Assembly (NCBI GenBank): GCA_024398515.1
Contig: JAKSIZ010000014.1
Location: forward strand, 1-46,721
Reading direction: 5' to 3'
From: Bacteroidaceae bacterium
Lineage (GTDB): Bacteria; Bacteroidota; Bacteroidia; Bacteroidales; Bacteroidaceae
Length of the DNA stretch: 46,721 nucleotides
The translations under genes were made by a program, and so were the position numbers. Below are positions 1 through 13,723 of the stretch, piece after piece. The notes below the pieces were generated by a model. That model was not told where the DNA came from. It saw only the letters and a list, made by a program, of their open reading frames with translations, and did not search any database. Positions within the stretch are counted from its first letter, which is position 1. Each line of letters starts with the position of its first letter.

Positions 1-205
1 AGCATATTTATTTTTTACGAACGAAGTGAGATATTTTTTATGCGAAGCATATTTTTTATATGATGTATGGATGGCCACGATAGTGGTGTCGTTGTGTGGT
101 GTGGTGGTGCAAGAACTTGTTCTTAAGCACCGACACACCACACAACGACATGGGCTTCAGAATGAAGCACACCATACATCATATCATTTTTTTCTTTTAT
201 ATGAT
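1..205 (+). repeat. Cloverleaf-type inverted repeat, copy 1 (may extend past the left edge)
   Basis: The sequence can fold as a four-way junction. The outer stem is 58-70 with 172-184 (13 bp). The left arm is CCAC 75-78 with GTGG 83-86. The long central arm is a perfect 16-bp stem, 88-103 with 134-149, capped by a further hairpin near 106-131. The right arm is GCTTCA 154-159 with TGAAGC 163-168. Upstream, T-runs separate a small hairpin ATGC-GAA-GCAT (40-50). Bases 1-30 are the exact reverse complement of the end of copy 3 (899-928), so the repeat reaches the window edge. An open frame runs through it, but it simply follows the palindrome and is unlikely to be translated. Function unknown. 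Confidence 0.85.
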
Positions 206-222
206 TGATTGATGGGCGAGTT

Positions 223-345
223 AAATGCTTTTGCTCTTACAGAGCGTATGGTTGCGTCGATATACCCAGGGCGTCGCTGCGCTATGCCCTGGGCTGATAG
301 GTGTAAGCCTTTCAGGCTATTACTTAGCGGACGACAATAAACCCT
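223..345 (+). repeat. CCCAGGGC palindromic dispersed repeat, copy 1
   Basis: It contains the stem CCCAGGGC 265-272 with GCCCTGGG 286-293, then a GGTGTAAGCC-TTTCAGGCTAT tract and a right end close to TTAGCGGAC plus CAATAA. The same modules recur as an inverted pair at 23865-24225, and a decayed relic lies near 4450-4495. It looks like a small non-coding dispersed repeat of the REP or MITE kind. No gene is seen in it. Confidence 0.75.
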
Positions 346-346
346 T

Positions 347-550
347 TTCGTGTGTAGTTATAATAGAAAAAAATGATATGATGTATGGTGTGCTTCATAC
401 TGAAGCCCATGTCTTTGTGTGGTGTGTCGGTGCTTAAGAACAAGTTCTTGCACCACCACACCACACAAAGACACCACTATCGTGGCCATCCATACATCAT
501 ATAAAAAATATGCTTCGCATAAAAAATATCTCACTTCGTTCGTAAAAAAT
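347..550 (-). repeat. Cloverleaf-type inverted repeat, copy 2
   Basis: This copy is inverted relative to copy 1. The outer stem is 376-388 with 490-502, the GCTTCA arm is 392-406, the central perfect 16-bp stem is 411-426 with 457-472, and the CCAC/GTGG arm is 474-485. The small hairpin TATGC-TTC-GCATA follows at about 510-522. It shares with copy 3 a start near TTTTCGTGTGTAGT and an end at TCGTTCGTAAAAAAT, which helps define the element edges. The central stem differs from copy 1 by a paired change (T414-A469 in place of G91-C146). Confidence 0.85.
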
Positions 551-553
551 GAA

Positions 554-625
554 GGATCCCCCCTCTGTCGCCCCCCCAAGAGGGGATGTCATCGGCTTGC
601 CGCTTTCTTGCTCTGGCTCATCGAC
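554..625 (-). repeat. G-rich dispersed repeat plus CGGCTTGCCGC module
   Basis: The reverse complement of 554-585 reads CCCCTCTTGGGGGGG, CGACAG, AGGGGGG. It belongs to the same family as 4391-4418 and the copy inside rsmD at 31603-31626. Next to it is ATCGGCTTGCCGCTTTCTTGC, a module that also recurs near 4318-4340 and 23934-23950. The remaining bases up to the next cloverleaf (626-706) show no further feature I can name. Confidence 0.6.
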
Positions 626-706
626 GAAGTCGCTCGGCTTGTCCGAGAACCGACTAAAGTCGATGACACAAAGCTTGCGACTGAAAGAACGGTTCAAGTC
701 ACTCTA

Positions 707-928
707 CCATTTTCGTGTGTAGTAATAAAGAAAAAAATGATATGATGTATGGTGTGCTTCATACTGAAGCCCATGTCTTTGTATGGTGTGCCGGTGCTTA
801 AGAACAAGTTCTTGCACCATCACACCACACAAAGACACCACTATCGTGGCCATCCATACATCATATAAAAAATATATGCTAACGCATAAAAAAATATCTC
901 ACTTCGTTCGTAAAAAATAAATATGCTT
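707..928 (-). repeat. Cloverleaf-type inverted repeat, copy 3
   Basis: Same orientation as copy 2. The outer stem is 740-752 with 854-866, the GCTTCA arm is 756-770, the central stem is 775-790 with 821-836, and the CCAC/GTGG arm is 838-849. The central stem has one mismatch, A783 against C828. Read on the - strand this would be a G-U pair. The following small hairpin has a changed loop (TAAC instead of TTC) with its TATGC/GCATA stem kept. Bases 899-928 mirror 1-30 exactly. Confidence 0.85.
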
Positions 929-929
929 T

Positions 930-975
930 TACGGTTTAAGGTCTGTATAACCGTACAACCATATAACTCATAACC
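930..975 (+). repeat. Degenerate AACCGTATAACC tract, copy 1
   Basis: A short, imperfectly repeated run of TATAACCGTACAACC-like words. Related runs occur at 4633-4663 (reverse complement) and 43405-43455. No coding potential is seen. Confidence 0.45.
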
Positions 976-979
976 ATAT

Positions 980-1175
980 ATTATTTTTTATGGCCAAAGG
1001 CCACATTTTTTACCGTAAGGTATTTTTTCTTTTGATGGTATGGTAGCCCTTCGTAAGAAGGGTGATGGTGTATGACGGAATGTCATCGGCATGCTTGCAT
1101 GACAGGGACATTACGACATACAACATCAATGTATGCACATAGTGCAGACATCATACCATCAAAAGTATTTTGCTC
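980..1175 (+). repeat. Cloverleaf-type element of different sequence (type 2)
   Basis: The layout is that of copy 1 but the sequence is different. Two small hairpins between T-runs come first (TGGCC-AAA-GGCCA 991-1003 and TACC-GTAA-GGTA 1011-1022). A four-way junction follows. The outer stem is 1029-1042 with 1152-1165 (14 bp), and the left arm is CCCTTC 1047-1052 with GAAGGG 1057-1062. The central arm is 1064-1084 with 1107-1127, with three single-base mismatches and an inner CATGC/GCATG cap. The right arm is TGCAC 1134-1138 with GTGCA 1142-1146. I infer that it belongs to the same structural family as the three neighbouring copies. Confidence 0.7.
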
Positions 1176-1241
1176 TATTATAATATACTTGCACATGAAA
1201 ATAGTTTTTGTTTGAGTAATAAAAAAAATCTTATAAAGTGC

Positions 1242-1270
1242 TTGTAGTTAAAAAATTATTTGTACCTTTG
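1242..1270 (+). promoter_or_regulatory. Bacteroidetes-type promoter for the leader RNA / InlB-repeat gene
   Basis: TTG at 1242-1244, 18 bases, then TACCTTTG at 1263-1270, matching the Bacteroidetes TTG / TAnnTTTG consensus. Transcription would start near 1277, about 340 bases before the start codon of the InlB-repeat gene. Confidence 0.75.
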
Positions 1271-13503: not shown

Positions 13504-13561
13504 TAATTATGCACATCGAACGATTGCGTTTCCATACGCGAACGTATGCATCTCTGCACAC

Positions 13562-13656
13562 GAACGCTTAAGTCGAAAAAAAGTTGTACAACTTTCATCT
13601 GAAAGTTGTACAACTTTCGCGCGAAAGTTGTACAACTTTTTTTCGACTTAAACGCA
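13562..13656. repeat. Triple-palindrome repeat, copy A (symmetric form)
   Basis: Three perfect AAAGTTGTACAACTTT palindromes lie at 13580-13595, 13602-13617 and 13624-13639. They are spaced by 6-base linkers (CATCTG, CGCGCG), an exact 22-base period. The whole is flanked by inverted arms TTAAGTCGAAAA / TTTTCGACTTAA. Unlike the other four copies it lacks the ACCCCTCTAC...GGGGGT end. It fills the gap between the two acyltransferase genes, and no gene is seen in 13504-13723. Confidence 0.9.
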
Positions 13657-13723
13657 CGCCTTTAGAAACGCATTCGGACAACTGCCCGACAGCATAGCAA
13701 GAGACATAAAAAATATAACAAAG

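Follow-up and report, generated by a model that had tools for sequence, protein, structure and literature searches.

BrickBuilt, a MITE of Porphyromonas gingivalis, has been described as short and gene-less, with inverted ends and many intergenic copies, and its ends were compared with those of other MITEs and of insertion sequences of this species (PMC4596501). The accessible part of that report names no four-way-junction ends for BrickBuilt (PMC4596501), whereas the elements treated here end in cloverleaves, called leaves in the following, and carry a GxxExxY gene in their long form. In the window, i.e. the whole stretch of 46,721 nucleotides that was analysed, the interval 698-1197 is short, gene-less and bounded by inverted ends like a MITE, and a gene-carrying parent can be named for the derivative L340 in the genome G370. 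REP/REPIN-RAYT systems likewise have structured palindromes and a small gene in the parent form, but a leaf measures ~130 nt and has three arms as a rule, target duplications occur in G370, and no leaf-flanked Y1 gene was found in the host's own genome (88% complete). IS200/IS605 elements resemble leaf elements in their hairpin ends and in the recognition of folded DNA; leaf elements differ by mirrored ends and 8-bp duplications, and no HUH gene was seen. Integron attC sites, folded single strands used in recombination, stand in cassette arrays, whereas leaf elements are dispersed mirrored pairs. Holliday-junction resolvases, whose substrate is the four-way junction, include PD-(D/E)XK members. 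This superfamily is shared by PF13366, the family of GxxExxY, according to its Pfam name; a cleavage of four-way junctions here would be an idea by analogy. Rpn (transposase_31, PF04754) belongs to the same superfamily as GxxExxY. It is a different family, a nuclease linked to RecA-independent transfer in the accessible part of the literature on it, which names no structured ends.

Anatomy of the leaves and their copies in the host genome

A first-pass annotation had described three repeats at the beginning of the window as able to fold into a four-way junction. This proved correct for all three copies, and none of 200 shuffles folded as well; the fold z-scores were -9.9 to -12.7 as DNA and -9.2 to -11.6 as RNA. 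The 13-bp outer stem, the 6-bp GCTTCA/TGAAGC arm (3-nt loop) and the 4-bp CCAC/GTGG arm are present as annotated. The central arm comprises ~17 bp plus a capped inner stem, and the T-flanked mini-hairpin is genuine and lies on the inner side of the leaf. The annotation had missed that copy 1 is inverted, its complement matching copy 2 at 97% over 195 nt, and that a fourth leaf of unrelated sequence and the same plan lies at 1029-1165 (z -12.1 as DNA). Together with copy 3, which it faces, this leaf forms one complete gene-less element (window 698-1197), while copies 1 and 2 are half-elements. The general unit consists of an outer motif, a four-way-junction leaf of ~130 nt, a mini-hairpin and a spacer or gene, followed by the mirror image. 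The features of the window are:

10-57, minus strand: inner mini-hairpin block HA of copy 1, flanked by T/A tracts, 100% identical to the HA module
58-184, minus strand: cloverleaf A of copy 1, an inverted half-element near the contig start (z -12.7 as DNA; scanner)
341-375, plus strand: outer end motif of copy 2, ..TTTTCGTGTGTAGTTATAATAGAAAAAAATG, common to other A copies
376-502, plus strand: cloverleaf A of copy 2 (z -12.2 as DNA; alignment A2)
503-552, plus strand: HA block of copy 2, ATGC-TTC-GCAT between A-tracts
698-739, plus strand: outer end of copy 3, GTCACTCTACC..TGTGTAGTAATAAAG, by eye like the GGGTCAC tips of other species
740-866, plus strand: cloverleaf A of copy 3, left leaf of the complete gene-less element (z -9.9 as DNA)
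867-918, plus strand: HA block of copy 3
919-980, plus strand: short spacer, where full-length relatives carry the GxxExxY gene (comparison with long forms)
981-1028, plus strand: mini-hairpin block HB of the right end, TGGCC-AAA-GGCCA and TACC-GTAA-GGTA between T-tracts
1029-1165, minus strand: cloverleaf B1, right leaf, without sequence similarity to A (z -12.1; model R1)
1166-1197, minus strand: outer edge of the right end, ..CTATTATAAT.., by eye the inverted edge motif of other copies

BLAST with copy 2 gave at least 58 matches in the host genome, self-complement matches included, among the best 40 of 76 candidates; the HB stretch 981-1028 had 28 further genome matches besides four self-complement ones. 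The 52 pieces taken around copy-2 matches contain 65 occurrences of the modules A, B1, B2 and B3, of which 47 cover at least 90% of the module length and 18 touch contig ends. Elements with two ends mostly run from the outer edge through an A or A2 leaf, HA, spacer, HB and a B1/B2/B3 leaf to the inverted edge; the spacer is often palindromic itself. Such composite elements recur in the host genome with different flanks each time. A sequence-blind scanner added the leaf types D1, D2 and E1; the partner of E1 is another palindrome, E2. The host genome has eight leaf types, none of which retrieved another by BLAST in the runs made. In the window and 20 own-genome stretches, the latter mostly selected around elements, the scanner found 38 strict matches, compared with none in three first-order shuffles; other palindromes account for at least three of these matches (window 13521-13676, L178:61-197 and L176:8307-8427).

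In the own genome, certain copies lack an arm or a leaf. Among the elements C81 (L027), C22 (L164) and, in G370, L341 and L342, the loss concerns a single leaf, the two leaves or the central arm alone. The losses look as if the missing parts had been deleted at the base of a hairpin, and derivatives of this kind would be expected if leaves form hairpins during replication.

Other repeats were observed in the neighbourhood. A second class, adjoining leaf elements, consists of GCCCAGGGC/GCCCTGGG, AGCCTGAAAGGCT and GCTCTGTAAGAGC hairpins, with the end in many cases close to TTAGCGGACACCAATA (window 205-345, L163:1635-1812 and L178:61-197). Near-perfect palindromes of 16-18 bp stand in tandem, about three per site (AAAGTTGTACAACTTT, AACATTGCTGCAATGTT, AAAACTGCTACAGTTTT), at window 13560-13645 and in flanks in L010, L012 and L019; AACATTGCTGCAATGTT and AAAACTGCTACAGTTTT adjoin leaf elements. 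At C1, a DpnII-type restriction-modification operon (L160:3225-6093) has an A half-element on one side and a D1-D2 element on the other. It was considered as cargo and rejected, the right end of the same element not being seen to close it.

Conservation of the fold and reach across genomes

Leaves from the own genome and from G296, G325 and G002, thirty in all, follow one plan of 110-137 nt when read from the outside inward. It comprises an outer stem and a long central arm, as a rule with two arms flanking the latter; no more than two branches appear in the fold of B3, A2 and a few further leaves. By eye, most leaf types have at their apex a GARC-AA-GYTC-like cap, which lies on one and the same strand and is inexact in B3, X_G325b and the G002 leaves. 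In the alignment of family A (19 rows, 18 distinct), 97.8% of the cells are paired; 15 pairs changed on both sides, all of them in the central arm, and 57 double-change cells stand against five one-sided ones; the covariation score was matched by none of 500 shuffles. Alignment A4 (33 rows, 30 distinct, fitted to a model and including opposite-strand readings) has changes on both sides in 52 of 56 pairs, and 90.7% of its cells pair. G-T pairs make up 20 of 1567, or about 1%; structured RNAs are usually much richer in G-U pairs. Co-variation with nearly absent G-T pairs is read as the result of selection or repair acting on DNA hairpins, and it could be arm-to-arm repair, rather than selection, that keeps the pairing. 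An absence of further copies from related genomes, or copies that retain the sequence and lose the paired arms, had been named in the first-pass annotation as evidence against its view; mostly the reverse was found, relatives keeping the pairing and losing the sequence, apart from the own-genome copies without an arm or a leaf.

Covariance-model searches, a check of the kind proposed there, revealed leaves in other genomes of the genus. Model R1 was built from five D1 leaves of the own genome, G296 and G325. With default filters it found B1, B2 and D2 at E 3e-9 to 3e-14 and missed A and E1; the B1 leaf 1029-1165 of the window was recovered at E 3.8e-12 by this model made of D1 leaves only. With filters off, A, E1 and E2 were found as well (best-strand E 3e-7 to 6e-12). 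A random 300 kb of four relatives had no match to R1 with default filters, and scanner matches in L239/L240 were discarded, looking like coding noise. Model R2, for which leaves of G296, G325, G379 and the own genome served as the training set, detected leaves in at least 33 of 398 genus genomes, the own and the three training genomes included (best eight candidates per genome). Across the order, three of 393 genomes had matches: the own genome, G608, with a facing gene-less leaf pair, and G612. By eye, nine elements of other species repeat the plan of the half-element, with ACAAAAACC-nnn-AAAACC or a close variant, leaf, A-tract, in most cases a mini-hairpin, and A-tract.

Sequence search is a poor tool for leaf elements. 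BLAST with ten joined modules reached at least six of 398 genus genomes, the own included (best two candidates each). Leaf A was retrieved by BLAST in one of 40 genomes and the HA pattern in one of 60, in both cases the own genome, and the exact HA string had no match in the genome contig collection. Among phages, neither a DNA match to window 1-1250 nor a protein match was obtained, and none of 62 pattern stretches from IMG/VR was related to the GxxExxY profile. Plasmids gave five weak GxxExxY matches; two of these loci were scanned and had no leaf, L309 presenting only a 0.006 match far from the gene.

The GxxExxY gene, insertion sites and target duplications

The annotated absence of a nearby transposase holds for the analysed stretch, but genes bearing leaf ends occur elsewhere in the genome. 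PF13366 has four matches in the host, and the two strong ones, named GxxExxY by NCBIfam, score 135 and 86 bits against a curated cut-off of 35 (TIGR04256/PF13366). Both adjoin leaf ends: at C12 the gene lies between two leaves in the order E1, gene, E2, and at C73 between an HA block at the contig end and a variant mini-hairpin block with leaf B3. In G002 a GxxExxY gene is leaf-flanked, too. Twenty loci of other species were fetched for their leaves, the genes not being looked at beforehand; L288-L291 were chosen because their leaf pairs are widely spaced, L292 because its pair is narrow, L293-L295 because several leaves share one contig, and the rest by rank and variety. Nine of them had GxxExxY between leaves, namely the four wide ones and five of the remaining 16 (L293, L295, L299, L301 and L306 among L292-L307), where ~0.04 would be expected by chance, given 39 matches in ~90 Mb.

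Leaf pairs were tabulated for 45 non-own loci with 77 typed leaf matches and 29 neighbouring pairs; own-genome and duplicate loci, opposite-strand readings and matches below ~26 bits (L301, L302, L268, L345) are omitted. Eleven neighbouring pairs enclose more than 450 nt: nine contain GxxExxY, one an IS110 transposase (L298) and one a KilA-N gene (L291). The other 18, with 58-403 nt inside, are of the gene-less form, and one of them retains a GxxExxY fragment. The order plus then minus was obtained by model score in only 20 of the 29 pairs. Strand calls are weak because the leaves are near-palindromic: in L170 one A leaf scores slightly better on the opposite strand, and the L299 leaves face each other by their tips, though not by model scores. 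The KilA-N domain gene (L291:3210-4025, G278) is flanked by two leaves pointing the same way. This pair is perhaps not one element, and the gene is possibly a second kind of cargo.

From the side of the gene family, 27 non-own GxxExxY-family loci were scanned. Only G002, present under two locus ids, was clearly leaf-flanked, and L195, L202, L212 and L222 were borderline. In L261 the gene is accompanied by a leaf on a single side. Among GxxExxY loci to which BLAST with the G370 element led, L312 and L316 present a leaf next to the gene. A tree of 36 proteins places 12 of 13 leaf-flanked ones (one side being enough) in one clade of 14 rows with support of 100/99; the leaf label requires three changes against 10.8 in shuffles, none of 500 being as low. 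The C12 protein lies outside this clade, and L207 and L222 are members without a clear leaf. By eye, the GxxExxY genes of L222 and L211 (G001) are situated within palindromic tandem repeats and that of L207 (G009) between long inverted repeats; GxxExxY may be tied to palindromes more widely. E41, D81, E94 and K96 are invariant in 13 proteins; D81 and E94-x-K96 correspond to the catalytic D and (E)xK of PD-(D/E)XK nucleases, a predicted activity. A profile search of the PDB gave no GxxExxY match at E<=1. In the literature found, mostly outside subscription journals and seen in part, GxxExxY occurs by name only in passing, and no function was found in print.

The C12 element sits between a RapZ-C/phosphotransferase gene and a nucleotidyltransferase gene. 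These neighbours abut, by eye, in five of 15 fetched loci (L244, L245, L246, L250 and L251), representing the empty site; in the other ten the upstream neighbour is different or was not recognised. In G370, a complete genome of one contig, the shared sequence begins at GGGTCAC or close variants, and three of four copies are bordered by exact 8-bp target duplications: GAATTTTC in L299, which carries GxxExxY, GAAAATTT in L298, which carries an IS110 gene, and GATAATTC in L341, which has lost both leaves and has no model match. The fourth copy, L340, has no target duplication. It is an internal-deletion derivative made of positions 1-303 plus 916-1016 of the G370 GxxExxY element and retains the left leaf along with a portion of the right leaf. 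The remnants L300 and L342 bear a single tip. Three IS110-family genes lie in or beside G370 elements (L298:2840-3919, L341:1333-2409 and L300:2499-3575), those of L298 and L300 directly adjoining a leaf at its inner base.

The tabulation of flanking duplications suggested in the first-pass annotation was thus positive for three of four copies in G370, but not over all 32 composites, where an untargeted 8-mer test gave seven of 32 against 22% in the control and was not above it. An 8-bp repeat beside a shared 7-base tip was seen in two of 32 composites and in one of 992 mismatched pairs. In the tip-and-duplication scan L290 scored 16.9, C12 13.0, and L298 and L299 12.9, a value also reached by one random pair in the first control of 60 pairs; the candidate repeats are shorter in L290 (5 bp) and C12 (6 bp). 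In the untargeted test, the only duplication candidate of the own genome was at C23a, a 9-bp repeat at 41/42 nt.

Mode of movement

A non-autonomous mobile element had been one suggestion for the repeats, and it is borne out by the dispersed copies, the empty site of C12, the 8-bp duplications of G370 and the gene-carrying forms with like ends. It is nearly certain that leaf elements are mobile elements. GxxExxY is likely their own enzyme; as the only gene repeatedly found between the ends, it is most simply regarded as such, and a role as sole transposase is plausible. At its start, the window probably contains one complete copy without a gene, and two halves, of a transposable element that has cloverleaf ends and is mobilised by GxxExxY. 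More tentatively, with slightly less than even confidence, we propose a new class of DNA transposons whose ends would be recognised mainly as a folded junction and whose sole enzyme, the GxxExxY nuclease, would cut and insert with 8-bp duplications. The leaf ends would extrude, or become single-stranded at replication, and form four-way junctions. The PD-(D/E)XK superfamily includes junction nucleases, and GxxExxY as a putative member would recognise the junctions, cut there and mobilise the element. Gene-less copies, e.g., window 698-1197, would be moved in trans, and the A-tract mini-hairpins and outer tips may set the points of cutting or insertion. This family of small mobile elements of Bacteroidales bacteria looks new: such elements were not described in the literature found, which lies mostly outside subscription journals.

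Leaf elements might instead be MITEs that an ordinary DDE transposase mobilises in trans, with GxxExxY as a frequent passenger or helper and the leaves protecting or regulating the ends. Target duplications of 8 bp are usual for several DDE families, and together with the GGGTCAC-type inverted tips they resemble DDE insertion sequences; many GxxExxY genes exist without leaves, and KilA-N and IS110 genes occur beside leaves as well. However, the 11 wide pairs include no recognised DDE gene, IS110 being a DEDD transposase, while nine hold GxxExxY, and 12 of 13 leaf-flanked genes fall in one clade. The ORFs of L298, L341, L342 and L300 revealed no DDE gene by eye; BLAST of the whole G370 element in its own genome placed tips at further sites (best 40 of 49 candidates). 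We consider a DDE transposase unlikely, though a serious alternative to GxxExxY.

Transcribed leaves acting as terminators, processing signals or regulatory RNAs would agree with the RNA fold, as good as the DNA fold, and with the strong co-variation. The structured RNA of the first-pass annotation is nevertheless disfavoured and has to be seen as highly improbable: the window has no Rfam match above the gathering score, G-U is nearly absent, with G-T at ~1% of pairs, whole leaves or arms are missing from some copies, and the C12 copy is an insertion. By eye, the ends also read alike from the outside inward, with the same apical AA loop and mini-hairpin from each end, so that a single transcript would contain one leaf as such and its partner as the complement. 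In RAYT and REP systems a Y1 (HUH) transposase moves hairpins that are, like the leaves, palindromic, intergenic and numerous, but the sole Y1_Tnp match of the host (assembly 88% complete) is weak, has an internal stop and lies at C18, in a stretch (L179) without scanner match. HUH enzymes are not expected to give target duplications, and we give this mode of transfer hardly any credence.

If leaf elements are indeed mobilised by GxxExxY, a family for which no function was found in print would obtain a role. Recognition of the junction would explain why the leaf types share the fold without sharing sequence. The elements would also explain assembly breaks in such genomes, and they would make it possible to study how a junction nuclease may bring about transposition. 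They would represent a kind of mobile element defined at its ends by the shape of the DNA, and perhaps a mode of DNA movement that is new.
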